Positions 8,049 to 57,043 of a stretch of 64,000 nt of DNA are shown here, piece after piece. The notes beneath the pieces are model-generated. The model searched no databases, was not told where the DNA came from, and worked only from the letters and a program-made list of their open reading frames with translations. This stretch comes from a virus, in IMG/VR virus record IMGVR_UViG_3300031857_000123, positions 1 through 64,000 of that record. One strand, given 5' to 3'. Numbering within the stretch: the first letter of the stretch is position 1; every line of letters starts with the position of its first letter. A program made the position numbers and the translations under genes.

Positions 8049-8087
8049 GTATAGTTGCTACTATACCACACCTTTTTAGGAACAAAT

Positions 8088-9725
8088 ATGTCAAATAAAA
8101 TTATCTTAAAAAAATCATCTGTTAACAGCAAAGCGCCTGTTACAGGTGACTTAGAGTATGGTGAACTGGCTCTTAACTACGCAGATGGTAAGCTGTACTT
8201 TAAAACCCCCGGTAATACAATTGACTACTTTAGTTCTGGAGATTTGGTAACTGGACCAACAGGACCGCAAGGTACTGTTGGCGCTACTGGGCCACAAGGT
8301 TTGCAAGGACCCCAAGGTGTAACAGGCCCTACAGGAGCGCAAGGTGTTGTTGGCCCAACAGGTGCTACAGGTGCTGACTCAACAGTTGCAGGTCCCACAG
8401 GTGCGCAAGGTATTCAAGGTATTCAAGGTGTTGTGGGACCCACAGGTGCTACAGGTGCCGACTCAACAGTAGCAGGCCCCACAGGTGCACAAGGCGTTGC
8501 AGGTCCCACAGGTGCACAAGGTATTGTGGGCCCTACAGGTGCACAGGGTACACAAGGTGTAACAGGCCCCACAGGTGCCCAAGGTGAAACCGGCGTGCAA
8601 GGTATACAAGGTGTGCAGGGTGTAGCAGGCCCCACAGGTGCACAAGGCACACAAGGCGTTCAAGGTGTGCAGGGTGTAGCAGGCCCCACCGGTGCTGTAG
8701 GCCCCACAGGTGCACAAGGCAGCACAGGTGCAGCTGGTCCCACAGGACCACAAGGCCCACAAGGTCCACAAGGACTTCAAGGCAATCAAGGCCTGCAAGG
8801 TGTTGCAGGCCCAACAGGTCCACAAGGTGTAGAAGGGGCAGCCTCAACAGTAGCAGGCCCCACAGGACCAACCGGTCCAGTTAATAGCTCTAGCGTATAC
8901 ACAGGTATTGAAGTAGATACTTTTACTTCCAACGGATCTACAACCAGCTATACACTAAGCTTACAGCCAATAAGCAAAGACTATGTACTAGTAATGTTGC
9001 AAGGTACCTTGCAGCCTCGCAGTATTTATTCAGTTAGTGGATCCACACTAACATTTACTGAAGCACCAACAGCAGGTGCCCTAATAGAAATTACCACGTT
9101 TACAGCAGCACAAGATGTTGTTGTTGGTCCCACAGGACCGCAGGGCACACAAGGTGTGCAAGGAATTCAAGGCATCACAGGTGCCACAGGCCCAACTGGC
9201 AGTGTGGGTCCCACAGGACCACAAGGTGTAGCAGGACCCACAGGTGCTACTGGTGCTAACTCAACAGTGGCGGGCCCCACTGGCGCTCAAGGACCACAAG
9301 GAGTACAAGGACCCATAGGTACGGCAGGGCCCACAGGTGCACAAGGTATTCAGGGCCCACAAGGTATTCAGGGTATTCAAGGTGTAGCAGGCCCCACAGG
9401 CCCAGCAGGTAGTGGTGGAAGTACAGGGTTACAAGAAAACACACGAACTTCCAGTTATCAGCTAACAGCATCGGATAATGGCAAGTATATTAATATTAGT
9501 AATGGTGGTGTAACAGTTCCTGTTAACACATTTATTGCAGGTAATACTATTTCTATTTATAATAATTCAGCAGCTTCACAAACAATTGTTCAAGCTGCAG
9601 GCGTAACAATTTATTTAATTGGTACTAGTATAACTGGCAGCAGAACACTAGCACAACGAGGTTTAGCTACACTACTATGTGTGGCTAACAACGAATTTGT
9701 GATTACTGGCGGAGGTTTATCCTAA
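8088..9725 (+). CDS. Collagen-like tail fibre
   Basis: 545 residues. The ATG at 8088 is chosen because AGGAACAAAT precedes it and the product begins [12 protein letters not shown], the same attachment-type N-terminus as its neighbour; an in-frame start at 8055 would add an unrelated leader. Gly-X-Y repeats dominated by GPTGAQG and GIQGVQG run from about residue 48 to 265 and again from about 345 to 450, split by a beta domain. A globular tip of about 100 residues follows. Such repeats form triple-helical shafts in phage fibres. The stop overlaps the next ATG (TAATG). Confidence 0.85.
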
Positions 9726-11326
9726 TGTCAGTTATTCAACTATTTTTTGCATATATAAGTGATTTAGTTTCGCCATATGCTTGGAGTATTATCAGAGCAG
9801 TTTGGCCTAGCACAGGTAGTTCTGGTATTTTTAGTGTTGCTGCTCAAGAAACTTCAGCGTCTGGGGTGTTTTTTAAACCAGATGGTACTAAAATGTACGT
9901 TTTAGGCACTTCAGGTGGAGACGTAAATGAGTATAATTTAGCCACGCCCTGGGATGTTACAACCGCTAGTTTTGTACAATCCCAATTCCAAGGCTATCCT
10001 AGTGAGAGTACACCAACAGGTATATTTTTTAAACCAGATGGTTTAACCATGTATTTAATTGGTCAAAGCAATGATTTTGTTGCCCAATATACACTAACAA
10101 CTGCTTGGGATATAAGCACATTTAGTTTTACTGAAAGATTTAGCATTAACGCTCAAGAAGGTAGTTCAGAAAGCGTATTTTTCAGCACAGACGGTACAAA
10201 AATGTACGTAATAGGCAATGGAGGAGATGATGTAAATGAGTATACATTATATACTGCTTGGAGTGTGAGTACAGCTAGTTACACACGAGTATTTAGCGTT
10301 GTCGCGCAAGAAGCAATCCCTAGAGCGCTGTTTTTTAAACCAGACGGTACTAAAATGTATGTAAGCGGTAATAGTGAAAAAATACATGAGTACACACTAA
10401 CAACGCCTTGGAATCTTTCCAGTGCTAGTTTTACAAGAAGTACAATAGATATAGGTGAGTTTAGATCAAGCATAAATGTAGGGTGTATATTTATAAAACC
10501 AGATGGCACAGAACTGTACGTTGCAAATGATTTAACAGATGATATTATTACTTTTACAATGCTGACCCCTTGGGATGTTTCCAGCTTAGTAATAAAAAGA
10601 CCTACTTACAGTGCTAGTACACAGCCACAATTTGCAGGTGCACACGATTTGTTTTTTCACCCAGACGGAACAAAAGTGTTTATCTTAGGGCAATCCCTTA
10701 GTTTTGTGGTTTGCTATGATCTTTTAGAACCTTGGCGTATACAAACTATTAGATATGTTAATGAATTTAATGTAGGTACTCAAGAGAGTTCGCCTACCGG
10801 TTTATTTTTTAGACCCGACGGTTTAAAAATGTACGTAATTGGAACCAACAATGACAGAGTACAAGAGTACAATTTATCAACAGCGTGGAACGTTACCACA
10901 GCAGTATTCAGTCAGAATTTTAGCGTAGGAGCGCGAGACTCTACTCCTGATGGATTGTTTTTTACACCAGACGGTCTAACAATGTACGTAGTTGGAAACA
11001 GAGTATATCAGTTTGTATTAACAACAGCTTGGAATATTAGTACTGCAAGTTATGTTAGAGAGTATAACACAAACCTACAAGATACTTCGCACAACGCTAT
11101 ATACTTTAAACCAGATGGTTCGAGAATGTACACTGTAGGTAATAACAATGCCGCAGTATATGAATACTTATTAACAACACCTTGGAACGTAGGTACCGCG
11201 TCTTATGTTCAAAACTTTAGCGTAACTGCCCAGCAAACTAATCCACGTGGTATAAGTTTTAAACCAGACGGTACTACAATGTATATAGTGGGTGGAGGGT
11301 CGGTGCACGAGTATGTTATTCAATAA
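9725..11326 (+). CDS. Propeller-like repeat protein, 10 repeats of about 50 residues
   Basis: 533 residues made almost entirely of ten repeats of the form FFKPDGTKMYVxG...EYxLTTxWxVSTASF, starting near residue 43. The PDGxxMYV core resembles blades of YVTN/NHL/WD-type beta-propellers. The repeat number would suit one large or two smaller propellers. It sits between two collagen-like fibre genes and is coupled to the first by TAATG, so it is probably a virion adhesion domain. The propeller fold is inferred from repeat length and motif. Confidence 0.75.
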   Translation: MSVIQLFFAYISDLVSPYAWSIIRAVWPSTGSSGIFSVAAQETSASGVFFKPDGTKMYVLGTSGGDVNEYNLATPWDVTTASFVQSQFQGYPSESTPTGIFFKPDGLTMYLIGQSNDFVAQYTLTTAWDISTFSFTERFSINAQEGSSESVFFSTDGTKMYVIGNGGDDVNEYTLYTAWSVSTASYTRVFSVVAQEAIPRALFFKPDGTKMYVSGNSEKIHEYTLTTPWNLSSASFTRSTIDIGEFRSSINVGCIFIKPDGTELYVANDLTDDIITFTMLTPWDVSSLVIKRPTYSASTQPQFAGAHDLFFHPDGTKVFILGQSLSFVVCYDLLEPWRIQTIRYVNEFNVGTQESSPTGLFFRPDGLKMYVIGTNNDRVQEYNLSTAWNVTTAVFSQNFSVGARDSTPDGLFFTPDGLTMYVVGNRVYQFVLTTAWNISTASYVREYNTNLQDTSHNAIYFKPDGSRMYTVGNNNAAVYEYLLTTPWNVGTASYVQNFSVTAQQTNPRGISFKPDGTTMYIVGGGSVHEYVIQ

Positions 11327-11353
11327 CATTATTAATCTACTAAAGGTAATTAA

Positions 11354-14300
11354 ATGAGCATTTTAAAATTAAAGCCGTACAGCTTAGACCAAGCGGCGGA
11401 ATATACTTTTGGTAGTATTACAGTTACCGGTCTAAGCAACCTGGGTAACCTAAGCAACATTGTAATTGCTGACGGTACGACAGGTCAAACCGTAATCAAA
11501 AACGCACTAGGCGGTTTAACTTGGGTTACACCTTTTAGCGGTAGCTATACTGACTTAACAAACAAACCAACACTTACTGTTGGCCCAACGGGTCCACAAG
11601 GTGAAGTAGGCCCACAAGGCATACAAGGTGTACAAGGCGTTGCAGGTCCCACAGGTCCGCAGGGCTTACAAGGGGATGCAGGCGTTGCGGGGCCCACAGG
11701 TGCACAAGGCGCACAAGGTATACAAGGTGTTGCAGGTCCAACAGGTGCACAAGGTGATACCGGAGCCCAAGGCGTTGCGGGACCCACAGGTGCACAAGGC
11801 ATACAAGGCATACAAGGTACGCAAGGCGAAACCGGTGCACAAGGCACGCAAGGTACGCAAGGTTTGGTGGGTCCAACAGGCTCACAAGGTGTTGCAGGCC
11901 CCACAGGCCCACAAGGTAATACTGGTCTACAAGGCCCAACAGGCTCACAGGGTGAAACTGGTATACAAGGCCCTACAGGTGCTCAAGGATTGCAAGGCAC
12001 TCAAGGCATACAAGGTATACAAGGTGTTGCAGGTCCCACAGGCCCACAAGGTATTCAAGGCGAAGTAGGCCCACAAGGAAGTACTGGTCTACAAGGTCCA
12101 ACAGGTGCACAAGGTGCACAAGGTGTGCAAGGTGAACTGGGTCCCACAGGACCACAAGGTATTCAAGGCGAAGTAGGTCCTCAAGGTATAGCAGGCCCTA
12201 CTGGATCACAAGGTGCTCAAGGTGTTTCAATCACACTCAAAGGCGAAGCAGCTGACGTAGCCAGTTTGCCAGCTTCAGCTGACATAAACGATGCCTACAT
12301 TGTACAGTCAGACGGTAACTTGTGGGTATGGAATGGTACTACTTGGACAGATGCTGGTCAAATTGTTGGTCCGCAAGGTCCCACAGGTGCTGCTTCCACA
12401 GTTGCTGGACCAACAGGCGCGCAAGGTGAAACCGGTGCACAAGGTCCTACTGGGCCACAAGGTATTCAGGGTACCCAAGGTGTGCAAGGTGAAGTGGGCC
12501 CAACAGGTGCACAAGGTGTTGTAGGTCCAACAGGTGCACAAGGTGATGCAGGCGTTGCAGGTCCCACAGGTGCACAAGGTGTGCAAGGTGTGCAAGGTGT
12601 GCAAGGCACACAAGGCGATGTAGGCCCACAAGGTGCAACTGGACCCACAGGTGCACAAGGCTCAGACGGAACAAGCGTAACACTAAAAGGCTCCGTAGCA
12701 CTATTATCAGACTTAGACTACATTAACACACCACAAGTTGGAGACTTATATGTTGTCCTAGAAGGTGGTAATGGTTATGTTTATAATGGTTCTGTGTGGA
12801 GCAGTGTAGGAGCTATCAGAGGTCCACAAGGACCAACAGGTGTTCAAGGAGCCGCTGGCCCCACCGGTGCACAAGGTGTTCAGGGAGTTCAAGGACCAAC
12901 TGGCCCACAAGGTGTTCAAGGTGAAACAGGTACACAAGGTGCTCAAGGAGTTCAAGGACCCACAGGTGCACAAGGTGCTCAAGGTGTGCAAGGACCCACA
13001 GGTGCACAAGGCGCGCAAGGTGAAACTGGTGCTCAAGGATTACAGGGTACTCAAGGCATACAAGGTGTGCAAGGCGAAGTGGGCCCAACAGGACCACAAG
13101 GTTTGGTGGGCCCAACAGGTGCTCAAGGAGCCGATGGCCTGGACTCAACAGTGGCTGGTCCACAAGGCATTCAAGGACCAACTGGTCCGCAAGGCACACA
13201 AGGCATTCAAGGCGACACTGGTGCCACAGGCCCAACAGGTGCACAGGGTGTACAAGGTACAGCAGGACCCACAGGTGCCCAGGGTACTCAAGGTGAAACA
13301 GGTGCTGTGGGACCAACTGGTCCACAAGGCACACAAGGCATTCAAGGCGTTGAGGGCGTTCAAGGCGTTCAAGGACCCACTGGCCCACAAGGTGCACAAG
13401 GCACGCAAGGTATACAAGGTGTTGTTGGTCCAACAGGTGCACAAGGTGTTGCAGGTGCTACAGGTCCCACAGGTGCGCAGGGTGTTGCAGGTGCTACAGG
13501 TCCCACAGGCGTAGCTGGCCCAACAGGTACACAAGGTTTGGTGGGCCCAACAGGTGCACAAGGTGTTGCAGGTCCCACAGGTGCGCAGGGTGTTGCATCT
13601 ACTGTACCAGGCCCAACCGGGGCACAAGGCCCAACAGGTCCTGCTGGCAGCGGCAGTAGTGCACTGGCTGACCTAACTGATGTTGACTTAACCACTGCTG
13701 CCACAAATGGTCAAGCACTTGTGTACGATACTGCTACCAGTACTTGGAAACCGGGCAGTGTTGCTGCTGGTTCAGGTGGGGTTGGAGGAAGTTTTGTTAC
13801 CAGAACTTATAGCGGCGATGGTACTACTGTTGATTATACAGTTACCTCAGGTTTAACAGTAGACTCCGTGCTTGTATTAGAAAACGGTATTGCACAGACT
13901 CCCACTGTAGACTATACTGTAACCGGAACAACACTAACATTTACTACTGCCCCGGCTAGCGGCATGAGTATTCAAATACGCGAACTAGGCGGCGGTGACG
14001 TTACACTAACTAGCACACAAACTTTAAGTAACAAAACAGTTGTTGATGTGGTGTTTGAGGGCGATTATACAGAGCAAGTATTTACCATCACAGACGGTGC
14101 ATCGGTTGATCTTGACCCGTCTAATGGCACGGTGCAAGTGTGGACATTGGGGGCTAATCGCAGCCCCACAGCAACAAATTTTGCTTCAGGGCAGTCTATG
14201 ACCTTGATGGTTGATGATGGTGCGGCCTATGCAATTACATGGCCAAGTGTAACATGGAAGACCGATGGGGGCGTTGCACCAACGCTTAACACAGCAAGTG

Positions 14301-49715: not shown

Positions 49716-50024
49716 TTAAAAGGGTACATCGTCATCTAAGATACTGCGAATCATTTCACGTTCGCGCTTGACTAAGTCGTCTTCGAGCCAAGGTTTGATT
49801 TCTTCTTCGATGAATCGTTGCTGAGCCTTATACCCAGCGTGTTCTTGTATGGTTTCGGTAACAATCTTGGTAAACTTAAATAATCCAGACTTTTCAGCCC
49901 AGATCAGGTATTCGTAGTGGTCTGGGATACAATCACATACTCGGCAACCTTGTAGTTTGCCTACCATAATTTTGTCTTGCATGTCTAAGAGTGGAGACTT
50001 TAGTTTTGAGAATCCAATTGCCAT
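49716..50024 (-). CDS. Hypothetical protein, possible exonuclease-associated domain
   Basis: 102 residues from ATG 50024, chosen for GGAG 8 nt upstream and the shared TAATG. 'MVGKLQGCRVCDCIPDHYEYLIWAEKSG' resembles the 'fGkyKGk.l.dvP..YL.Wl' motif seen at the C-terminus of exonuclease X-type proteins; the match is weak. The stop abuts tRNA-Gly(GCC) directly. Confidence 0.55.
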   Translation of the reverse strand: MAIGFSKLKSPLLDMQDKIMVGKLQGCRVCDCIPDHYEYLIWAEKSGLFKFTKIVTETIQEHAGYKAQQRFIEEEIKPWLEDDLVKREREMIRSILDDDVPF

Positions 50025-50182
50025 TACCAGTGTCTCCATACGCCTGCTACAATAAAGCAATTTGTGCCAATATAACTTAACACAATTAGTGTTCTGATAA
50101 TGGCTACCACATCAGCTTCGCAGTCAGTATTTCCAGCTTTGGCGCCTAGGGCATTTGCCCAAAGTCTCCAAAATTTTCTCAT
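50024..50182 (-). CDS. Small membrane protein
   Basis: 52 residues with one hydrophobic span (about 26-48, VAIIRTLIVLSYIGTNCFIVAGVW). Coupled on both sides: ATGA overlap with 50179..50337 and TAATG with 49716..50024. Function unknown. Confidence 0.6.
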   Translation of the reverse strand: MRKFWRLWANALGAKAGNTDCEADVVAIIRTLIVLSYIGTNCFIVAGVWRHW

Positions 50183-50337
50183 GCTTGTTGCTCTGCTTCT
50201 AGCTGTTCAAGCCTATCGGCTGCTTCTTCTAGCAAGTCTGCTATACGGTCTGGTTTGCCCTCTTGCACCGATTTTCTGGTAGCAATCTGACGACGTATTT
50301 CAGCACGTTTTCGTAGTCTGTAGATTAGTGTTTCCAT
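50179..50337 (-). CDS. Small helical basic protein
   Basis: 52 residues, 'METLIYRLRKRAEIRRQIATR' then an acidic helix. The GGAG ribosome site lies against the 3' arm of the hairpin at 50345..50447, whose last two bases are its GG, so folding could limit access to it. Confidence 0.6.
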   Translation of the reverse strand: METLIYRLRKRAEIRRQIATRKSVQEGKPDRIADLLEEAADRLEQLEAEQQA

Positions 50338-50344
50338 AATTACT

Positions 50345-50447
50345 CCATATATAACCACACTAGGTGTCAAGGCTTCTCACTACGCCTGTTCGCGACTAGT
50401 ACACTAGACACCACCGTGGAGTTAAGGCTTAGTGTGGTTATATATGG
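50345..50447 (-). repeat. Intergenic hairpin 1 (18-bp perfect arms)
   Basis: Arms CCATATATAACCACACTA and TAGTGTGGTTATATATGG. The minus-strand 5' arm begins with the CCA of tRNA-Ser(TGA); the 3' arm ends at the ribosome site of 50179..50337. Inside, GGTGTC pairs with GACACC. Confidence 0.9.
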
Positions 50448-50536
50448 CGGGTAGCAGAGGAGTCGAACCCCATCCCGTTTCCGAGAACCCAGTTTTCAAG
50501 GCTGGTCGCAGGACCAACCCCGCTGCATTACTACCC
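50445..50536 (-). tRNA. tRNA-Ser(TGA)
   Basis: GGGTAGT/GCTACCC acceptor, anticodon loop CTTGAAA, long variable arm TCTCG-GAAA-CGGGA, encoded GCCA. 92 nt, class II. Confidence 0.9.
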
Positions 50537-50542
50537 ACTATT

Positions 50543-51127
50543 TTATTCTTGTTTTGCTTCTGATTCACGCTTGGCTTGCATAGCTTGCAGCCGCTTGACC
50601 ACTTCGTCCGAACCCATCCAAATGTCTTTGTTGTGCAACATACTGGAGATTTCTTCGCGGGTTAAAAAGTCTTGGTATACTTCAGTCATGAAGTTTTCTG
50701 ACCAAGTACGTTCAAACTGTAGCTGATCGTACATTTCGCCGCCTTTGCCAAATGTTCCAGCCGAATAGTTGTGAAACATAAACAAGCTGTGTGGCGTGAC
50801 TTCTTGCGAATGACCGTGTAGGAAGATCATGGTGGCTGCACTCATGCAAGCACCTTCTACACTGCACACAACAGTAGCATCTGTGTCCGACATTACTCGT
50901 AAGAACTGTAGTGTGGTAAAAAGATCACCACCAGGACTATTGATATAAATGCGAATTGTGTCGGCGGCCGATGCGTTACGAATAATGTCAAACCACTCAA
51001 TGTATTCCTCGGAATCTTGAATTGGTCCTGACAAATAAAACTCATGAACGTGTGCGACTGGCTTTGTGAAATTGGTTGAAAACTTGTTGGATTCAAACAA
51101 TTTAGGGTCGAGAATATTAGACTTCAT
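50543..51127 (-). CDS. ClpP-like serine protease
   Basis: 194 residues. 'IRIYINSPGGDLFTTLQFLR', then 'ACMSAATMIFLHG' with the nucleophile Ser96, 'FMFHNYSAG' with His119, and a later Asp region (NKDIWMGSDEVV). This is the ClpP/crotonase-like catalytic order. In phages such proteins are usually head maturation proteases; here the gene is away from structural genes and immediately downstream of a phage tmRNA. It begins 11 nt after hairpin 2, with AAAGGAACTT as ribosome site. Confidence 0.85.
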   Translation of the reverse strand: MKSNILDPKLFESNKFSTNFTKPVAHVHEFYLSGPIQDSEEYIEWFDIIRNASAADTIRIYINSPGGDLFTTLQFLRVMSDTDATVVCSVEGACMSAATMIFLHGHSQEVTPHSLFMFHNYSAGTFGKGGEMYDQLQFERTWSENFMTEVYQDFLTREEISSMLHNKDIWMGSDEVVKRLQAMQAKRESEAKQE

Positions 51128-51137
51128 AAGTTCCTTT

Positions 51138-51221
51138 ACTATATTTAAGTACTCTAGCTAGCCAAGGAGCCCTTGCTGTTAGGCAAGGTGGGGTTTTAAC
51201 CCAAAAGTACTTAAATATAGT
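51138..51221 (-). repeat. Intergenic hairpin 2 (16-bp perfect arms), 3' side of tmRNA
   Basis: ACTATATTTAAGTACT pairs perfectly with AGTACTTAAATATAGT. It begins one base after the last recognisable tmRNA stem and ends before the ClpP-like start. Inside are GGGTT/AACCC and CCTTGC/GCAAGG hairpins. Arms resemble those of hairpin 3. Confidence 0.9.
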
Positions 51222-51265
51222 GCCAGTATTCTGTTACGAGGAACTGGCCAAACCCTAAGCAGCAA

Positions 51266-51298
51266 TTAAGCTGCTAAAGCGTAAACTTGATCGTTTGC
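51266..51298 (-). other. tmRNA tag-peptide reading frame
   Basis: Codons GCA to TAA encode ANDQVYALAA. The terminal ALAA is the degron read by host ClpXP and related proteases. Confidence 0.93.
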
Positions 51299-51419
51299 GT
51301 TTATTTTTGTTTTGCTTCTGCAAATGGGAACAACCCCAATCTTAAGGCTTCTGCTTTACCTAGTTGTCTACGTCTCTACTCTTAGCCCAATCGATCCTGT
51401 GTCAGGCCCATCAAAAGAA

Positions 51420-51494
51420 AACTGAATTCAGGCTCTATGTCCTGACCATATGCTTACGCCGTGATGCACGTTGTACACCGTGTCAATTTTCTTT
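51420..51494 (-). other. tmRNA intervening segment with long stem
   Basis: The segment between CCA and the mature 5' end starts AAAGAAAATTGA and ends TCAGTTTTCTTTTGAT. Together with the flanking acceptor bases it forms an 18-position helix with one U-G and one mismatch. It is removed in two-piece tmRNAs. Confidence 0.8.
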
Positions 51495-51554
51495 TGGTGG
51501 ACCTGGCGGGCACTGCCCCCGCGTGTCGAACTCTTTTGGGTCGGCTTCATACAA

Positions 51555-51646
51555 CCATATTTAAGTACTCTAGTTTGGATTCAAACCTTGTTCTAGTCTT
51601 GTCGATCTGCGCTTCTCACAGTGCTGACCAGAGTACATAAATATGG
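51555..51646 (-). repeat. Intergenic hairpin 3 (17-position arms), 5' side of tmRNA
   Basis: CCATATTTAAGTACTCT against AGAGTACATAAATATGG, one U-U mismatch in the minus-strand RNA. It fills the whole space from the CCA of tRNA-Thr to the first base of the tmRNA acceptor piece. A GTTTG/CAAAC hairpin lies inside. Confidence 0.9.
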
Positions 51647-51717
51647 TGCCCCATGACAGAATCGAACTGCCGTAACCTGATTACAAAACAGGTGTAATAC
51701 CATTATACTAATAGGGC
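51644..51717 (-). tRNA. tRNA-Thr(TGT)
   Basis: GCCCTAT/ATGGGGC acceptor, anticodon loop TTTGTAA, T-loop TTCGATT, encoded ACCA. Anticodon stem closed by a U-U. Confidence 0.9.
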
Positions 51718-51792
51718 TGGAATAGGTGACAGGATTCGAACCTGCATTGAACGGATTTGCAATCCGACGCGTAGCCGTTCCGCCACACCTAT
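51718..51792 (-). tRNA. tRNA-Cys(GCA)
   Basis: ATAGGTG/CACCTAT acceptor, anticodon loop TTGCAAA, T-loop TTCGAAT, encoded TCCA. No space before tRNA-Thr. Confidence 0.92.
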
Positions 51793-51793
51793 A

Positions 51794-51997
51794 TTAAATT
51801 TGACGAGCGCGAACACACTGTTCAAACTGATTAAACGTGCGCTCAAACTTCAGCTGATACATTTGCTTTAGTCCAATCAGGTAATTCATACGCTGATCTT
51901 CGTCCATATTGTCGTGCATATCCAAATACAACTGAATGTCATCACAAACATTCCAGCATTGCATAATACCTTGTTCTAAGTCAAAACGATCAGTCAT
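51794..51997 (-). CDS. Small helical protein
   Basis: 67 residues, acidic N-terminus and helical middle (DDIQLYLDMHDNMDEDQRMNY). It ends one base before tRNA-Cys. Function unknown. Confidence 0.6.
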   Translation of the reverse strand: MTDRFDLEQGIMQCWNVCDDIQLYLDMHDNMDEDQRMNYLIGLKQMYQLKFERTFNQFEQCVRARQI

Positions 51998-51998
51998 G

Positions 51999-52469
51999 TT
52001 AGTTTGCCAATATAAATTTTAAACGGTCAGCAGCATAGCTTGCTGCAAAAGCTCGGGGCTTTACTTGAGCGTCAATGTTACAAGTACCTTTGATATATCC
52101 AACTGCTTGCTGTACAACAGCAGAACTCTTGTATCGCTCGTTGGGATTAATGTCTAGGTGTACTTCTACATGACGATCTTGTAAGACCTCTGATAGTTCA
52201 TGAAATAGGTCGCTTACTTTGTAAACTTCATTCATTAATCGCATACTGGGCTTGTTTGCTTTTTGATCCCAGTCACGTTCACGAGTTACACTTCCAAAGA
52301 TTTTACACCCATGACAACCATCAATATGCACAACAACTGCCAGGGTATAGTCAGCGTGCCATACGCCGTTAACTTTAACGCGTTCTGAATCTGCACCTAA
52401 GTAAACTCGGGTTTCAGGACTCTGTGCTGCAATAAAGTCTCGGACTTCTTGGATGTTGAATTCGTACAT
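51999..52469 (-). CDS. RNase H-like fold protein (YkuK/DUF458 type)
   Basis: 156 residues from ATG 52469. 'VYLGADSERVKVNGVWHADYTLAVVVHID' (first Asp strand), 'RLMNEVYKVSDLFHELSEVL' and 'VEVHLDINPNERYKSS' (second Asp) and 'VVQQAVGYIKG' follow the DUF458 predicted RNase H-like family. Its biochemical role is not established. Here it is embedded among tRNA genes, so RNA processing is conceivable but unproven. Confidence 0.75.
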   Translation of the reverse strand: MYEFNIQEVRDFIAAQSPETRVYLGADSERVKVNGVWHADYTLAVVVHIDGCHGCKIFGSVTRERDWDQKANKPSMRLMNEVYKVSDLFHELSEVLQDRHVEVHLDINPNERYKSSAVVQQAVGYIKGTCNIDAQVKPRAFAASYAADRLKFILAN

Positions 52470-52482
52470 AGTATGTGTTAAG

Positions 52483-52559
52483 TGGAGGGTCTGGAGAAAG
52501 TCGAATTCCCAACCTCTTGGTTCGTAGCCAAGTGCTCTGATCCATTGAGCTACAGACCC
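52483..52559 (-). tRNA. tRNA-Arg(ACG)
   Basis: GGGTCTG/CAGACCC acceptor, anticodon loop CTACGAA in stem CTTGG/CCAAG, T-loop TTCGACT, encoded TCCA. A34 would need editing to inosine. Confidence 0.92.
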
Positions 52560-52562
52560 TTG

Positions 52563-52636
52563 TGGCAGAGGATAGAAGAATCGAACTTCTGACAACGGAA
52601 TCAAAATCCGTGGTTATACCATTTAACTAATCCCCA
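52563..52636 (-). tRNA. tRNA-Gln(TTG)
   Basis: TGGGGAT/ATCCTCT acceptor with a weak U-U first pair, anticodon loop TTTTGAT in stem ACGGA/TCCGT, encoded GCCA. Confidence 0.9.
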
Positions 52637-52644
52637 ACAAAATA

Positions 52645-52719
52645 TGGCTCCAAAGGCAGGGATCGAACCTACGACCAATTGATTAACAGTCAACTGCACT
52701 ACCGCTGTGCTACTTTGGA
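52645..52719 (-). tRNA. tRNA-Asn(GTT)
   Basis: TCCAAAG/CTTTGGA acceptor, anticodon loop CTGTTAA, T-loop TTCGATC, encoded GCCA. Its first base abuts hairpin 4. Confidence 0.93.
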
Positions 52720-52820
52720 ATATTTAATTCTAGTGCCTGGTCGCAATCTCCAGGTAGCTTCAGCAATGGAAGGAACATTGCCTACACACTATAGCCAGTG
52801 AATTCACTAGAATTAAATAT
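52720..52820 (-). repeat. Intergenic hairpin 4 (16-bp perfect arms), cloverleaf-like interior
   Basis: ATATTTAATTCTAGTG pairs perfectly with CACTAGAATTAAATAT. The interior contains three hairpins in a row on the minus strand: CACT/AGTG, GCAATG/CATTGC with 7-nt loop, and CCTGG/CCAGG. The whole ends exactly at tRNA-Asn. Confidence 0.88.
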
Positions 52821-52989
52821 GCTGCTTACGATATACAGCGTGGCACTATCGTGGCCACCGATTGGATTACGGACGCTCTAACCGGAACGGCACGGACCTA
52901 AGGCAGGTTTTGGCGGTCTTAAGGGGTAACGATCCCCTTCTACAGCAGTGACAGTGCTGTGTGCGTCCATGAACACTTTAAGACCAGAT
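52821..52989 (-). ncRNA. Structured non-coding segment between tRNA-Leu and hairpin 4
   Basis: No reading frame fits. On the minus strand: GGTCTTAA/TTAAGACC, ACAGCA/TGCTGT with 7-nt loop, AAGGGG/CCCCTT, GTGGC/GCCAC and GCTG/CAGC. The last two loops contain complementary ACGATA and TATCGT. It starts right after the CCA of tRNA-Leu(TAA). No known RNA class recognised. Confidence 0.5.
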
Positions 52990-53073
52990 TGGTACGACTG
53001 AAGGGACTTGAACCCTTAATCCTTGCGGCGATTGATTTTAAGTCAATTGTGTATTCCATTCCACCACAGTCGC
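52990..53073 (-). tRNA. tRNA-Leu(TAA)
   Basis: GCGACTG/CAGTCGT acceptor, anticodon loop CTTAAAA in stem ATTGA/TCAAT, class II variable arm, T-loop TTCAAGT, encoded ACCA. Confidence 0.92.
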
Positions 53074-53078
53074 GTTAT

Positions 53079-53165
53079 TGGTGGTTGCTCTCCGACTCGA
53101 ACAGAGAAGGCCAGCGGCAAGAGATTTACAGTCTCCCCCCGATACCATTACGGGACTAAGCAACC
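53079..53165 (-). tRNA. tRNA-Tyr(GTA)
   Basis: GGTTGCT/AGCAACC acceptor, anticodon loop CTGTAAA in stem GGAGA/TCTCT, class II variable arm, encoded ACCA. First gene after the promoter at 53178-53206. Confidence 0.92.
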
Positions 53166-53177
53166 GAAAGAATAATA

Positions 53178-53206
53178 ATTATACCGCGTTTAACAAGAAA
53201 AGGCAA
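53178..53206 (-). promoter_or_regulatory. Sigma70-type promoter for tRNA-Tyr operon
   Basis: Minus strand: TTGCCT at 53206-53201, TATAAT at 53183-53178, spacer 17 bp, preceded by AAATTTAGAT. Confidence 0.85.
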
Positions 53207-53216
53207 ATCTAAATTT

Positions 53217-53290
53217 TGGCATCCCCCAAGAGACTCGAACTCTTACTAACGGTTTTGGAGACCGCCGTGCTGCCATTACACCAGGGAGAA
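53217..53290 (-). tRNA. tRNA-Trp(CCA)
   Basis: TTCTCCC/GGGGGAT acceptor with a U-U first pair, anticodon loop CTCCAAA, T-loop TTCGAGT, encoded GCCA. Confidence 0.9.
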
Positions 53291-53298
53291 ACAATGTT

Positions 53299-53373
53299 TG
53301 GTGGTTTTGAGTAGATTCGAACTACTGACCTAATCCGTATGAAGGATGTGCACTACCGCTGTGCTACAAAACC
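53299..53373 (-). tRNA. tRNA-Met(CAT), elongator type
   Basis: GGTTTTG/CAAAACC acceptor with a normal first pair, anticodon loop TTCATAC, T-loop TTCGAAT, encoded ACCA. Elongator preferred over Ile2 from the anticodon stem. Confidence 0.88.
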
Positions 53374-53396
53374 AAAAGCCAGAGACACGCTCTGGC
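53374..53396 (-). terminator. Hairpin before tRNA-Met
   Basis: GCCAGAG/CTCTGGC stem with 5-nt loop followed by TTTT on the minus strand, immediately upstream of tRNA-Met. It could terminate the preceding RNA or mark a processing site. Confidence 0.6.
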
Positions 53397-53625
53397 TGAG
53401 TTATAAGTGCCGGTTACATTCTCCGGCGACACATTTCGTTGTGCCTGAAGACATTGACGCTGTTTAAGTTCCTTAAAGGGGCATAGTCTGTAGCCTTGAG
53501 TAAACAGATACACAGTTATTTTTGTGTCAGGATAACTTTAACCCCGTGAGAGCAGCCCATCTTGTTTTCGCTTCAGCGGACGCAGGACAGTGGTATTAGC
53601 ACTGATTTGTTTACAAGCCTGCAAT
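53397..53625 (-). ncRNA. Structured non-coding RNA candidate, about 230 nt
   Basis: No frame fits. On the minus strand TAAACA/TGTTTA plus CTTG/CAAG close a domain of about 130 nt that contains CAGTG/CACTG with 7-nt loop, CGC/GCG, and AGTTAT/ATAACT. A second domain has GCACA/TGTGT. It starts right after the CCA of the initiator-like tRNA and ends in the hairpin at 53374. The 11-mer TTGCAGGCTTG also occurs in hairpin 6. No known class recognised. Confidence 0.5.
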
Positions 53626-53696
53626 TGGTTGCGGGGGAAGGATTCGAACCTTCTAGGCGGAGCTTATGAGACTTGCCTCTACCCTGACTCCCCGCG
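53626..53696 (-). tRNA. Initiator-like tRNA (fMet type), atypical body
   Basis: The acceptor CGCGGGG/CCCCGCA has the C1-A72 mismatch that defines bacterial initiator tRNA, and ends ACCA; E. coli initiator has the same acceptor. The T-arm is normal (GAAGG/CCTTC). The loop CTCATAA is present, but the gene is only 71 nt, and the D-stem and anticodon stem are poorly paired (3 bp), without the three G-C pairs of functional initiators. Confidence 0.7.
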
Positions 53697-53701
53697 ATTT
53701 T

Positions 53702-53884
53702 TTACACCATTGTGTGGTGGCTGTTAGCATCACGAACTTTAACATAATGTTCGTATTGCTCAATCCAGTAGTTTAGCTCTTTGCTATTCTGTGGATTTTT
53801 GTCAGCCAAGTACTGTTCTAATGGTTCGTGTTCTGGACTAAAAACTGATTTAAGCACTCGTAGTGCATAGTCTAGGCCGTTCAT
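53702..53884 (-). CDS. Hypothetical protein
   Basis: 60 residues, helical, acidic centre (EHEPLEQYLADKNPQNSKEL). Overlaps the upstream gene by ATGA. Function unknown. Confidence 0.6.
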   Translation of the reverse strand: MNGLDYALRVLKSVFSPEHEPLEQYLADKNPQNSKELNYWIEQYEHYVKVRDANSHHTMV

Positions 53885-54114
53885 TTTTGGTTAACGAACT
53901 CATAGAACTGCTTGCTTTTAGCAACCATGTCATTAAAGTCAAATGGCTTTGGCATGAACTTGGCAAGTTGTTCTTGACCCATTAGGGCTTTGTCTTTGGT
54001 ATTATCAAAGATTTCTTGTGCAAACTCTACTGAGGCTGCGTATTCTGCTTGCATTAGTTCAGCAGTCATCTTGAGAATTTCAAGACGAATTTCAAAAGGA
54101 GATTTATTACTCAT
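53881..54114 (-). CDS. Conserved helical phage protein
   Basis: 77 residues from ATG 54114 (AGGAACTACC upstream). 'MSNKSPFEIRLEILKMTAELM' is a form of the short 'SPFEIR...L.LA' proteins seen in many myo- and siphophages. Mostly helical. Function unknown. Confidence 0.62.
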   Translation of the reverse strand: MSNKSPFEIRLEILKMTAELMQAEYAASVEFAQEIFDNTKDKALMGQEQLAKFMPKPFDFNDMVAKSKQFYEFVNQK

Positions 54115-54183
54115 GGTAGTTCCTGTGTGTTGTGTAAAGTGTAGGCTTTGCACCTACTTGCGGCATCTAGGCCGTGTGAAATA

Positions 54184-54258
54184 TGGTACTGAGGGAGGAT
54201 ACCGAGACCTCGACCCCTCGCTTATCAAGCGAGTGCTCTGCCGCTGAGCTACCCCAGT
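54184..54258 (-). tRNA. tRNA-Ile(GAT)
   Basis: ACTGGGG/CCTCAGT acceptor, anticodon loop TTGATAA in stem CTCGC/GCGAG, encoded ACCA. The T-loop reads CTCGGTA, not the usual TTCGA form. Confidence 0.88.
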
Positions 54259-54263
54259 GTATT

Positions 54264-54338
54264 TGGTACTCCCGAACGGTTTCGATCCGTCTTTTCCGCC
54301 TTGAAAGGGCAGCGTCCTAGCCAGTAGACGACGGGAGC
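54264..54338 (-). tRNA. tRNA-Glu(TTC)
   Basis: GCTCCCG/CGGGAGT acceptor, anticodon loop CTTTCAA, T-loop ATCGAAA, encoded ACCA. Promoter 20 nt upstream. Confidence 0.92.
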
Positions 54339-54357
54339 ATTGTTTGTTTAAAATATA

Positions 54358-54386
54358 ATTATACAGCCAATGGGCTGAACAATCAA
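54358..54386 (-). promoter_or_regulatory. Sigma70-type promoter for tRNA-Glu/Ile
   Basis: Minus strand: TTGATT at 54386-54381, TATAAT at 54363-54358, spacer 17 bp. Confidence 0.83.
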
Positions 54387-54400
54387 GATAAGAATTCGAG

Positions 54401-54476
54401 TGGTGCAACCCACAGGAATCGAACCTGTTTCAATGGCTCTTCAGACCACCGCTATGACCACATCAGCTAGAGTTGC
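54401..54476 (-). tRNA. tRNA-Phe(GAA)
   Basis: GCAACTC/GGGTTGC acceptor, anticodon loop CTGAAGA, T-loop TTCGATT, encoded ACCA. The stop of the upstream gene lies 14 nt inside it. Confidence 0.92.
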
Positions 54477-54684
54477 AATCGCAATCTTTTGGGCAGACAG
54501 TAGAGTTTCGATCTCTTTCTACGACTTTCACAGAGTCGGGTGCTCCCATTACACTACCTGCTGCATTTTTGGGTTTTGCATGAATAGCTGCTTCGGCAGC
54601 CTTACACGCGGTTAGGGTATCAAACTGGCAACGGCCTCGTTCGCCGTATTTGTACTTACCATTGTTGCACTTTATACAGGGCAT
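54463..54684 (-). CDS. Small Cys-containing phage protein
   Basis: 73 residues, with AAAGGAATAT upstream. 'MPCIKCNNGKYKYGERGRCQFDTLTACKAAEAAIHA' is a recognisable small phage protein type with CxxC; a second Cys group (CPKDCDC) ends it. The UGA stop uses bases of tRNA-Phe. Function unknown. Confidence 0.65.
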   Translation of the reverse strand: MPCIKCNNGKYKYGERGRCQFDTLTACKAAEAAIHAKPKNAAGSVMGAPDSVKVVERDRNSTVCPKDCDCNSS

Positions 54685-54697
54685 ATATTCCTTTGTT

Positions 54698-54784
54698 TGG
54701 CGGGAGATACAGGAATCGAACCTGTCAGCCTATTTCTAAACGAAGGCTTAGCAAGCCTCTGTTGCACCTTGCAACACATCTCCC
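54698..54784 (-). tRNA. tRNA-Ser(GCT)
   Basis: GGGAGAT/ATCTCCC acceptor, anticodon loop TTGCTAA, class II, T-loop TTCGATT, encoded GCCA. The D-arm is unusual (TTGC/GCAA). Confidence 0.9.
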
Positions 54785-54785
54785 G

Positions 54786-54907
54786 TACCATATTTGAACA
54801 CACTAGCACCCACTTTTGCAACGTGTACTTTGTTGCCTAGACGTGTTGCCTTGCAAGGATTAAACAAGTGGTTGAACGCCAGCTTGCTAATGTGCTCAAA
54901 TATGGTA
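54786..54907 (-). repeat. Intergenic hairpin 5 (23-position arms)
   Basis: Arms 54786-54808 and 54885-54907. Two positions are not Watson-Crick: they are A-C on the plus strand but U-G and G-U in minus-strand RNA, so the helix is complete only as minus-strand RNA. It begins with the ACCA of tRNA-Lys and stops 1 nt before tRNA-Ser(GCT). CCACTT/AAGTGG lies inside. Confidence 0.9.
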
Positions 54908-54977
54908 GACGCACAGAGAATCGAACTCTGATTTGCTGGTTAAAAGCCAGCTACTTTAGCCGTTAAGTTATACGTCC
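54903..54977 (-). tRNA. tRNA-Lys(TTT)
   Basis: GGACGTA/TGCGTCT acceptor, anticodon loop CTTTTAA in stem GCTGG/CCAGC, T-loop TTCGATT, encoded ACCA. Confidence 0.93.
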
Positions 54978-55090
54978 AGGCTGCGCTTCCATTTGCCACG
55001 AAGCTGCTTGTGGCTTTTTGTATGTGAACCACTGCCGCCACGCTTCATCAAAGCTAAGGCAACATGATTCCGGGGTTTTCGTGTTTTCAT
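54968..55090 (-). CDS. Small basic phage protein
   Basis: 40 residues, 'MKTRKPRNHVALALMKRGGSG...KRSLDV', with AAGGAAATTT upstream. Short 'RKPRNPVAxAL' proteins are widespread in phages of proteobacteria. Pure basic composition suggests nucleic-acid binding. The last 10 nt, including the UAA stop, lie within tRNA-Lys. Confidence 0.72.
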   Translation of the reverse strand: MKTRKPRNHVALALMKRGGSGSHTKSHKQLRGKWKRSLDV

Positions 55091-55100
55091 AAATTTCCTT

Positions 55101-55175
55101 TGGTGGACCGTGGGAGGATCGAACTCCCGCTTCATGCTTGCAAAGCACATGTGCTACCATTATCACTAACAGCCC
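55101..55175 (-). tRNA. tRNA-Ala(TGC)
   Basis: GGGCTGT/ACGGTCC acceptor, anticodon loop TTTGCAA, T-loop TTCGATC, encoded ACCA. Confidence 0.92.
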
Positions 55176-55181
55176 AAATTG

Positions 55182-55265
55182 TGGTGCGTCGAGAGAGACT
55201 CGAACTCTCAATCCTTTCGGCACTGGCTTCTAAGACCAGCGTGTATACCATTCCACCACCAACGC
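55182..55265 (-). tRNA. tRNA-Leu(TAG)
   Basis: GCGTTGG/TCGACGC acceptor, anticodon loop CTTAGAA in stem CTGGT/GCCAG, class II variable arm, encoded ACCA. Confidence 0.92.
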
Positions 55266-55266
55266 A

Positions 55267-55434
55267 TTATACTTTTATATCTACGTTTGTGCCTTTGTTA
55301 GGGTCTACATTTCTGTAATACACCACTTGTTGCACAAACTGTTTATTGTTACTGTCTACCCTAGTTGTATAGACTATTTCTCGTACCTTACCCATGTAAG
55401 GTGAGAATGTTCTTGATACGCTAATTGTTTCCAT
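55267..55434 (-). CDS. Small protein starting inside a hairpin arm
   Basis: 55 residues (METISVSRTFSPYMGKVREI...). The ATG is part of the 3' arm of hairpin 6 and no Shine-Dalgarno sequence precedes it. It ends one base before tRNA-Leu(TAG). Beta-rich, no family recognised. Translation may depend on opening or cutting the hairpin. Confidence 0.55.
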   Translation of the reverse strand: METISVSRTFSPYMGKVREIVYTTRVDSNNKQFVQQVVYYRNVDPNKGTNVDIKV

Positions 55435-55616
55435 ATTGTTGTATACTTTGTTTACTACCCACCCCGCTAAGGGTGTGTTTCTGGATTATCGTGTTCATGA
55501 CGCACGCCTATGCCAGAACCCAGACCATACCCACCAACTTTCCCGGGTGTTGATGTTCTCAAGCCTGCAAGGTTCCATAACTGAATTGGCCACTAGCAAA
55601 GCATACAACAATATGG
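55431..55616 (-). repeat. Intergenic hairpin 6 (20-position arms, long interior)
   Basis: CCATATTGTTGTATACTTTG against CAAAGCATACAACAATATGG. The one non-Watson-Crick position is A-C on the plus strand and U-G in minus-strand RNA. It lies between the HNH stop and the next small gene. The interior is about 146 nt and includes TTGCAGGCTTG. Confidence 0.85.
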
Positions 55617-55621
55617 TCTAA

Positions 55622-56131
55622 TTACTCAGAACCATGTGTAATTCTGTGACAATTAGCACACAGAACTTTTAAATTACTAATAGAGTTATTTTCTCTATCT
55701 TTATCTATATGATGTACTTCTAGTGCTAAGACGTTGTCAAAACCACATATAGCGCATTTGCACCCATAATGTTTAAGTGCACGAGTTCTATAGGTAGAAG
55801 CACCATCTTTTGTTCTAAAGTAGGTGTTTGAACAAGCTCTAGAACAAGTTACTTGCTTATTACTATCGCGAACTTCTGTGGTAAACATACTACCACAGCA
55901 AACACATTTTCTTTGTTCAAGCTTTAATGGAGGGATTCCGTTAATAGTAAAATGAGATGTGTCCAATTCATTACCGTCTAAGAATTGTTTGACGATTGTG
56001 ATATATTGCCCTTTTTTAGCGTATCCAAGTTTATTTAAAACTTGTGCTGTGGACAACGAAGTATCTACATACTCAAATAATTTTCCAGAAACTAAAGCTT
56101 GCTCTAGTTTATTGATTAAAACTTTACTCAT
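55622..56131 (-). CDS. HNH endonuclease
   Basis: 169 residues. An N-terminal 75-residue domain precedes a zinc-binding part 'CVCCGSMFTT...CSRACSNTYF' and 'CAICG', and the HNH core 'LEVHHIDKDRENNSISNLKVLCANCHRITHG'. It is a free-standing gene among tRNAs, like phage homing endonucleases. Low GC content compared with the neighbours supports recent arrival. It has its own promoter. Confidence 0.9.
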   Translation of the reverse strand: MSKVLINKLEQALVSGKLFEYVDTSLSTAQVLNKLGYAKKGQYITIVKQFLDGNELDTSHFTINGIPPLKLEQRKCVCCGSMFTTEVRDSNKQVTCSRACSNTYFRTKDGASTYRTRALKHYGCKCAICGFDNVLALEVHHIDKDRENNSISNLKVLCANCHRITHGSE

Positions 56132-56153
56132 AAAATCTCCTGCTCATGTATAT

Positions 56154-56182
56154 ATTATACATCAATAGCAAGAATTTTGCAA
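56154..56182 (-). promoter_or_regulatory. Sigma70-type promoter for HNH gene
   Basis: Minus strand: TTGCAA at 56182-56177, TATAAT at 56159-56154, spacer 17 bp. Confidence 0.85.
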
Positions 56183-56200
56183 GTTAATTTTTGGTCACGG

Positions 56201-56279
56201 TGGTCCGAGTGGAAGGATTCGAACCTTCGATCTCTGCTTCCCAAAAGCAGCGGATTAAACCGGACTTTCCTACACTCGG
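56201..56279 (-). tRNA. tRNA-Pro(TGG)
   Basis: CCGAGTG/CACTCGG acceptor, anticodon loop TTTGGGA in stem CTGCT/AGCAG, T-loop TTCGAAT, encoded ACCA. Confidence 0.92.
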
Positions 56280-56355
56280 ATGTGTTAGTTTATTGAAGCA
56301 AACTAACAAAACTTACTGGAATACGCAAGACTGTCCAGTGCAACAAAGAACAATA

Positions 56356-56384
56356 ATTATACCTGAAATGTAAAATAACTACAA
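56356..56384 (-). promoter_or_regulatory. Sigma70-type promoter for tRNA-Pro
   Basis: Minus strand: TTGTAG at 56384-56379, TATAAT at 56361-56356, spacer 17 bp, preceded by AAATTTTACAC. Confidence 0.87.
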
Positions 56385-56398
56385 GTGTAAAATTTTAA

Positions 56399-56567
56399 TG
56401 GTGGATCGGGCAGGACTCGAACCTGCTAACTAAAATTATACAGCCCCGTAAGCAATATATTCGAATTCAGCCCACCTGTAACTTCATGTTTGCGACAGAG
56501 GAAGTAATCCTAGGGTGAAGGGGTTGTATGCCGGCTCTATGCTTTAACCATGTTAAGCTACCGATCC
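56399..56567 (-). ncRNA. tRNA-shaped gene with a 113-nt central region
   Basis: A perfect acceptor (GGATCGG/CCGATCC), D-arm (GCTT/AAGC with GG in loop), T-arm (GCAGG-TTCGAGT-CCTGC) and encoded ACCA are present. Between D- and T-arm lie 113 nt where a tRNA has about 22-36. This part contains ATACAACCCC facing GGGGCTGTAT (one mismatch), with AGGA/TCCT and TTCACCC/GGGCTGAA inside. No normal anticodon arm could be drawn. It may be a tRNA with a small intron or a new tRNA-like RNA. Confidence 0.7.
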
Positions 56568-56667
56568 ATATATTAGTACTTATTTTAACACAAGGGCGAT
56601 TAACTCCCACCGGATATATAGATTATCACTCTTTTGACGGCACGTATGTATAAGTACTAATATATGG
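56566..56667 (-). repeat. Intergenic hairpin 7 (18-bp perfect arms)
   Basis: CCATATATTAGTACTTAT pairs perfectly with ATAAGTACTAATATATGG. The final GG of the minus-strand 3' arm are the first two bases of the tRNA-shaped gene. Confidence 0.9.
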
Positions 56668-56845
56668 AGACCATCCCTAAATGGTCAACATATAGTCTTA
56701 TTACTGAGGGCGACAGCCCCACTGTATCTTAGAATATCCAAACATCCCTTCTACAGCGGCAGGGCGTTCTTTTGGTTGACGGGGCTTACACCCGCCTCGA
56801 ACGTAACTTATTCCTAGGGGCTAGAACTTGTCAGAGGAACGGGAC
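56668..56845 (-). ncRNA. Structured non-coding segment upstream of hairpin 7
   Basis: No frame fits. On the minus strand: GACCAT/ATGGTC, GGGC/GCCC tetraloop, TTCCT/AGGAA, CGTTC/GAACG around GGCGGG/CCCGTC. The stretch from GTTCGAGG to ACCAAAAGAA (about 56800 to 56763) resembles the tmRNA acceptor piece in order and spacing. Its role is unknown. Confidence 0.4.
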
Positions 56846-57043
56846 TTAATTACTATTTTTATAGACTCTGAGTGCTTCAGCGTCAAGGCTAGCATAAACT
56901 CGGAAACTATCGCGACCAACCTTGTCATAAAGATCGTTTGCCATTTGCTCAAGATTTACAAGTTGCTCGATTGAGATCAAGGTACAAGTAACATATCGTG
57001 ACAAGAAAGCATCAATTAAAAAATCGCGTGAATAGCCTGCCAT
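56846..57043 (-). CDS. Small helical protein
   Basis: 65 residues, helical, acidic. A promoter with -10 at 57065-57070 lies just upstream. Function unknown. Confidence 0.6.
   Translation of the reverse strand: MAGYSRDFLIDAFLSRYVTCTLISIEQLVNLEQMANDLYDKVGRDSFRVYASLDAEALRVYKNSN

Follow-up and report, generated by a model that had tools for sequence, protein, structure and literature searches.

Why are the tRNA genes of a phage separated by long hairpins that begin and end at the borders of the neighbouring genes? The question is raised by an IMG/VR virus entry of 68.9 kb (record IMGVR_UViG_3300031857_000123), of which positions 1 to 64,000, called here the window, were analysed. The DNA polymerase encoded in the window is nearest to those of T5-like (Demerecviridae) phages, with 47-48% identity, and the minus strand between 48 and 58 kb carries a tRNA array that includes a permuted two-piece transfer-messenger RNA (tmRNA). 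Seven hairpins, H1 to H7, are found in this array (Table 1). They are quite probably small structured RNA genes, each of which is wrapped in a processing stem fitted to its own junction. This reading is based on the comparison of the window with related viral sequences.

The hairpins of the tRNA array

A preliminary description of the locus listed seven hairpins with arms of 16-23 positions, and all seven fold as described. On the minus strand, which is the RNA strand, each terminal helix has some 16-23 bp and the minimum free energy lies between -30 and -66 kcal/mol. Nine stems in the region 50001-57000 reach a score of at least 34.9: the seven hairpins, one stem within the ClpP open reading frame (ORF), and the intervening segment of the tmRNA, which shares the design of the seven and counts as an eighth hairpin that had been overlooked. 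Two hundred dinucleotide shuffles gave on average 0.09 such stems, at most one per shuffle, with a best score of 38.8. The few imperfections of the arms had been reported correctly and consist, in the RNA, of one U-U in H3, two G-U pairs in H5 and one G-U pair in H6. The ends CCATAT and ATATGG, which had been given for the hairpins in general, belong to H1, H3, H5, H6 and H7; H2 has ACTATA and TATAGT, and H4 has ATATTT and AAATAT.

The hairpins were also said to start and stop at RNA-gene ends. The CCA of tRNA-Ser(UGA), tRNA-Thr and tRNA-Lys marks the start of H1, H3 and H5, respectively, H5 stops two bases before tRNA-Ser, and H7 runs into the GG of the RNA that follows it. The 3' neighbour of H1, H2 and H6, however, is an mRNA of a protein gene rather than an RNA gene, so that the phrase is somewhat too narrow. 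Rho-independent terminators were considered and rejected, as the combination of a GC-rich stem and a U-run is missing from the sequence 3' of each arm and the outer arms are AT-rich.

Table 1. Hairpins and associated RNA features in the tRNA array of the window
Feature	Position	Strand	Description
H1 (family A)	50345-50447	-	18-bp arms; core of about 67 nt; flush with the CCA of tRNA-Ser(UGA); ORF next
H2 (family B)	51138-51221	-	18-bp arms; permuted tmRNA before, ribosome-binding site of clpP-like gene after
Permuted two-piece tmRNA	51222-51554	-	flanked by H2 and H3; ARAGORN tag ANDQVYALAA; Rfam RF04321, 97.5 bits
Eighth hairpin (tmRNA intervening segment)	51403-51505	-	acceptor stem, CCA opposite UGG (one mismatch), about 13 further pairs
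H3 (family C)	51555-51646	-	arms and 52-nt conserved tRNA-elbow-like core
H3 core, T-loop element	51577-51587	-	
H3 core, D-loop-like element	51614-51619	-	GUGAGA
H4 (family D)	52720-52820	-	16-bp arms; ends one base short of tRNA-Asn
H5 (family E)	54786-54907	-	23-bp arms; from discriminator and CCA of tRNA-Lys through to tRNA-Ser
H6 (family F)	55431-55616	-	20-bp arms; several inner helices; ATG of next ORF within 3' arm
H7 (family G)	56566-56667	-	18-bp arms; ends with the first two bases (GG) of the tRNA-like RNA

Conservation of pairing in the arms

Relatives were gathered by a scan for the clpP-like ORF, which yielded 80 viral contigs, and in about 30 contigs with tRNA arrays hairpins occupy junctions equivalent to those of the window. 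The hairpins favour tRNA ends well beyond chance. A tRNA end is abutted by 58 of the 126 strong stems in the arrays of the relatives; random placement gives 4.5, with a maximum of 12 in 2000 trials.

The arms change on both sides of the stem together. In family F, to which H6 belongs, both-sided change is found in 35 of 52 pairs, and none of 500 shuffles matches the alignment on any of five measures, which include the number of double-changed pairs, the number of double-changed cells and the covariation score. In family D (H4) the change is both-sided in 17 of 34 pairs and again no shuffle out of 500 matches on these three measures; controls in which the partner strand was slid collapse in both families. 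Both-sided change also affects 12 of the 37 pairs of c1, a further core, which is common at the window's junctions in relatives and is absent from the window itself. The pairing is that of RNA. On the transcribed strand there are 187 G-U and 72 A-C oppositions, found with a detector that is symmetric for the two, and in stems with CCAT and ATGG ends the numbers are 67 and 16.

The preliminary description held that the arms are conserved by pairing rather than by sequence, and the covariation in families F, D and c1 together with the excess of G-U over A-C bears this out. Arms preserved among homologues without compensatory change, which were to speak against it, were looked for, and compensatory change turned out to be extensive. 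The stems also have two of the properties expected of RNase III processing stems. They are long, near-perfect duplexes of about two turns, 16-23 bp in the window and 20-25 bp in most copies of family C that are flush with a tRNA or lie in the tmRNA, and their arms are maintained by pairing at the level of RNA.

Conserved cores at changing junctions

The arms were at first thought to define a family of processing stalks. Paired arms do abut tRNA ends beyond chance, but most of the interiors prove to be conserved structured RNA families that reside at differing junctions. By comparison of the sequences, the hairpin interiors are mostly conserved, covarying RNA cores rather than filler. When the hairpins are clustered, a given interior recurs at differing junctions, with differing arms that again pair. 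The H1 core has hairpin-bearing relatives at three different junctions. The H2 core lies between tRNA-Thr and the tmRNA in contig L034, the H3 core lies upstream of clpP in L014, L016 and L018, and the H4 core is also present at the junctions from tRNA-Glu to tRNA-Asp and from tRNA-Leu to tRNA-Asp. The junction of H7 is occupied in relatives by other cores.

Core c1 was found in 66 viral contigs with unrelated pairing arms; it stands next to tRNA ends, ahead of genes and in permuted tmRNAs, where it forms the intervening segment. Among the proteins sampled from these contigs are a baseplate tube cap, a CobT-type porphyrin-biosynthesis protein and a ribonucleotide reductase; this suggests that c1 is carried by contractile-tailed, T4-like phages too. 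In permuted tmRNAs of phages, core c1 or core C is often found in the intervening segment (contigs L089, L095, L100, L110, L123, L184, L213-L215 and others), and the tmRNA spacer may therefore bear an RNA gene of its own.

Single hairpins can be missing from a junction, since the hairpin of the clpP leader, where H2 lies in the window, is absent from contigs L008 and L009. Two hairpins of different families are found in tandem at one junction in L020 (1235-1452, plus strand), as though an RNA gene between the two had disappeared or a cassette had been inserted.

Neither the window hairpins nor the cores of this kind in those relatives that were searched have a match in Rfam 15, which was scanned with cmscan at gathering thresholds and in some runs also at permissive ones. 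Cores c1, F and C have no match in 50,697 named phage records, and an exact-pattern search for c1 and C in 84,980 bacterial and archaeal species genomes found none.

A core that resembles the tRNA elbow

In family C, represented by H3, the length of the stem depends on context. The pattern of the 52-nt H3 core was found in 86 viral contigs, which contain 40 distinct 70-nt units. The stem measures 20-23 bp in the 12 copies that are flush with a tRNA. Within permuted tmRNAs it measures 23-25 bp in 10 of 12 copies and 13-14 bp in the other two, in which the count ends just inside the CCA. In the seven copies in which a spacer divides the core from the upstream tRNA, the stem has 7-11 bp. The dependence on context has a Fisher p of 1.4e-5 at a cut of 15 bp, and the long stem is thus a property of the junction, not of the core.

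The core itself looks like the elbow of a tRNA. It has a T-loop, UUCGAAU, a D-loop-like GUGGGA and, in place of the anticodon arm, a tiny hairpin with the loop GACAA. Columns 19 and 52, which correspond to the 19-56 pair of tRNA, co-vary, with 33 G-C, six A-U and one G-U, of which the A-U form may have only one or two origins. The likeness to tRNA thus extends, as covariation of sequence, to a T-loop/D-loop pair of the 19-56 type; an anticodon arm and a CCA-bearing acceptor stem are lacking, the sequence of P1 is free, and neither ARAGORN nor Rfam calls a tRNA. The mimicry suggests that a tRNA-binding factor is the target, with the core as its decoy or ligand.

Palindromic loops

An inner loop of c1 has, at a fixed place, a palindromic hexamer in 46 of 53 distinct cores, and the hexamers are of 12 kinds. 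When the 3' halves were re-dealt among the cores in 10,000 trials, the mean was 4.6 and the maximum 14. In family F one loop is palindromic in 21 of 22 unique sequences, with six kinds; the H6 copy is CCCGGG (55542-55547). The central dinucleotide switches between palindromes, and since two neighbouring bases have no way of pairing in the same molecule, this implies that one copy pairs with another. The same argument from the covariation of palindromic loops has been made for OLE and GOLLD, which are homo-oligomers (PMC12286853). Covariation of a palindrome in a symmetric loop, by which GOLLD and ROOL are judged, is evident in c1 and F and weak in family A, and these comparisons indicate that c1 and F probably pair with themselves as homodimers.

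All hairpin-bearing members of family A keep either ACTAGT, as in H1 (50395-50400), or GCTAGC, and TTGCAA of H5 (54851-54856) is invariant in family E. Palindromes as a general property of the hairpins were rejected, as 232 were observed and 214 expected over 182 loops; the effect is limited to some families. No palindrome-keeping column was found in the hairpin families Phe, c3, Met-long, Ser/Pro and Tyr>Leu. Cross-pairing of c1 and F within one phage was not seen in L006, which has GCGCGC and TCTAGA, or in L028, which has CGTACG and CCTAGG.

Stable RNAs of phage T5 and other known systems

The hairpins had been called unreported, a claim that does not hold for their design. Stable RNAs, with no function listed, are annotated in the tRNA cluster of phage T5 (AY543070), and two of them, RNAIII and RNAIV, are RNAs of about 105 nt inside hairpin stems of 20-22 positions, an architecture like that in the window. 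The 20-bp hairpin of RNAIII extends from the CCA end of RNAI into tRNA-His, and its annotated ends, placed on the stem, leave a 3' overhang of 2 nt, as RNase III would. The hairpin of RNAIV has 22 positions. In Erwinia phage KEY and Pantoea phage AAS21, hairpins end one base before tRNA-Tyr and tRNA-Asp and run into tRNA-His. Unlike the families of the window, the T5 RNAs are not listed as moving cassettes in the record, and RNAIII varies too little among T5 relatives to reveal any switching of a palindrome. A search of the open literature found nothing useful on the processing of the T5 stable RNAs.

The precursors of 16S and 23S rRNA have leader-trailer stems that are processed by RNase III. 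There, as here, a long stem loops out a structured RNA, and pairing is kept rather than sequence. The hairpins described here differ in that the cores are phage RNAs of 50-150 nt, the CCA of the neighbour is often part of the stem, and one core is combined with many stems. For both halves of the design there is a precedent, in the T5 stable RNAs and in the processing stems of rRNA.

GOLLD and ROOL are structured RNAs that occur near phage tRNA islands; they form homo-oligomers, have no assigned function, and many GOLLD RNAs exceed 800 nt (PMC12286853). They are far larger than the window hairpins, which span 84-186 nt and match no Rfam model, and lack junction-fitted wrapping stems.

A model and its alternatives

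The stems, their covariation, strand bias and flush position, the conserved cores and their re-use, the length of the stem by context and the switching of the palindromes are read directly from the sequence. In the model proposed here, the family-specific core of about 50-150 nt would be the RNA product, carried in the tRNA/tmRNA transcript, and the terminal stem of about 16-25 bp, whose sequence is set by the junction, would be the signal for its excision. The stem would often draw the CCA of the RNA upstream into pairing with the bases directly ahead of the RNA or mRNA downstream. Host RNase III would cut the stem, which would part the upstream and downstream transcripts and free the core as a stable small RNA, and the stubs would be trimmed by the ordinary processing of tRNA ends (RNase P and 3' exonucleases). 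Cores would swap junctions as cassettes, the stem being re-fitted each time. In the phage of the window the core is likely to be released as a stable RNA, and RNase III is proposed as the cutting enzyme with moderate confidence.

The arms alone might matter, as they do around rRNAs, and the interiors might be spacer. The arms directly abut RNA ends and come close in length to an RNase III substrate, which would be expected of such pure processing stalks, and close relatives do hold different cores at one junction. The cores, however, are conserved while the arms change, have covarying helices and loop motifs of their own and are retained at new junctions, and family C also occurs with a stem of a mere 7-11 bp, which makes pure stalks unlikely. 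Self-cleaving or self-splicing ribozymes that free the ends of tRNAs and tmRNA are likewise unlikely. Such activity would suit the placement at CCA ends and within the tmRNA intervening segment as well as the strong conservation of core nucleotides, and there is a precedent in the theta (hepatitis delta virus-like) ribozymes, RNA elements that are reported beside phage tRNA genes (PMC10879173). The window hairpins match no ribozyme family of Rfam, even at permissive thresholds where these were run, many unrelated cores occupy one slot, and a ribozyme should have no need of a nearly perfect stem of some 22 bp that is restricted to copies flush with a tRNA.

The hairpins could also be mobile DNA, of the type of miniature inverted-repeat transposable elements (MITEs) or Correia elements, the terminal inverted repeats of which are transcribed by chance. 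Correia/nemis elements are small hairpins with conserved terminal repeats, and their RNA is cut by RNase III. The presence of one core at several junctions, and the presence or absence of a hairpin in the clpP leader, would agree with mobility. Copies of one core, in contrast to MITEs and insertion sequences, have wholly different terminal repeats, those near RNA genes share the strand of these genes, G-U is favoured over A-C, and the exact-pattern search found neither c1 nor C in the bacterial and archaeal genomes. Mobile DNA is improbable.

Several points weigh against the reading of the hairpins as wrapped RNA genes. No further copy of the H7 core was found among the relatives' loci compared, and the cores of H5 and H6 were seen with just one kind of upstream tRNA or at junctions that closely resemble each other. 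Because the sequences counted are related and do not represent independent events, neither the shuffle numbers nor the Fisher and binomial p-values can be taken as strict probabilities. The annotated ends of T5 RNAIV leave an overhang of 1 nt beside an A-C mismatch, and those of RNAIII are an annotation in a record that is silent on how they were mapped. No sequence relation between the T5 and window cores was detected with models R1 and R2 or with nhmmer and the seven cores, and the link to T5 is therefore one of architecture, with homology not shown. Finally, double-strand nucleases other than RNase III exist, and the core could act in cis.

Other RNAs and genes of the window

The RNA downstream of H7 (56400-56567, minus strand) is tRNA-like, with acceptor, D and T arms and, in the anticodon region, a structured insert of about 90 nt that contains a second T-arm-like element. 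It is kept in at least 17 relatives, among which the insert is variable and largely paired, and its layout resembles that of the tRNA-like stable RNA1 of T5. Two more unannotated RNAs are encoded on the minus strand. One, of about 250 nt (53378-53634), lies between two tRNA genes, is highly conserved with some variable stretches, and has no match in Rfam. The other, of 90 nt (52821-52910), lies between tRNA-Asp and H4, is highly conserved and starts with AACCTGCCTTAGGTCCGTG in all aligned relatives. Three tRNAs missed by ARAGORN are evident on the same strand: tRNA-Ser(UGA) at 50448-50537, tRNA-Tyr(GUA) at 53079-53163 and a tRNA with the anticodon CAU at 53636-53700.

An ORF for an HNH endonuclease (55622-56131, minus strand) separates tRNA-Pro from H6. 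It looks like a homing insertion, because in contigs L007, L016 and L019 tRNA-Pro is directly flush with the hairpin related to H6. Outside the array, predicted structural proteins encoded at 8055-13700 (plus strand) contain long collagen-like GPTGAQG repeats, which account for the many chance inverted repeats there.

Implications for phage biology

Beyond the window, the cores may belong to a large unrecorded set of interchangeable small structured RNA cassettes in environmental phages, placed at tRNA ends, before genes or in the tmRNA gap with a new stem each time. Some of them (c1 and F) would self-assemble through a palindromic kissing loop, C would imitate the tRNA elbow, and the RNAs would act in trans as effectors of infection; this wider proposal is made tentatively. 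Transfer RNAs are frequent targets of anti-phage defence, so that tRNA-like and tmRNA-linked phage RNAs are plausible as counter-defence or translation factors. The tRNA mimicry of family C and the association with tmRNA suggest a connection with translation, or else with defences aimed at tRNA.

Several new RNA families supported by covariation are obtained, of which two have strong comparative evidence for homodimers and one is a mimic of the tRNA elbow. Small RNAs with a single switching palindrome would make an easy test system for RNA self-assembly. The hairpins also provide a testable model of those stable RNAs in T5-like phages that have lacked an explanation: the loop would be the gene and the stem its wrapper.

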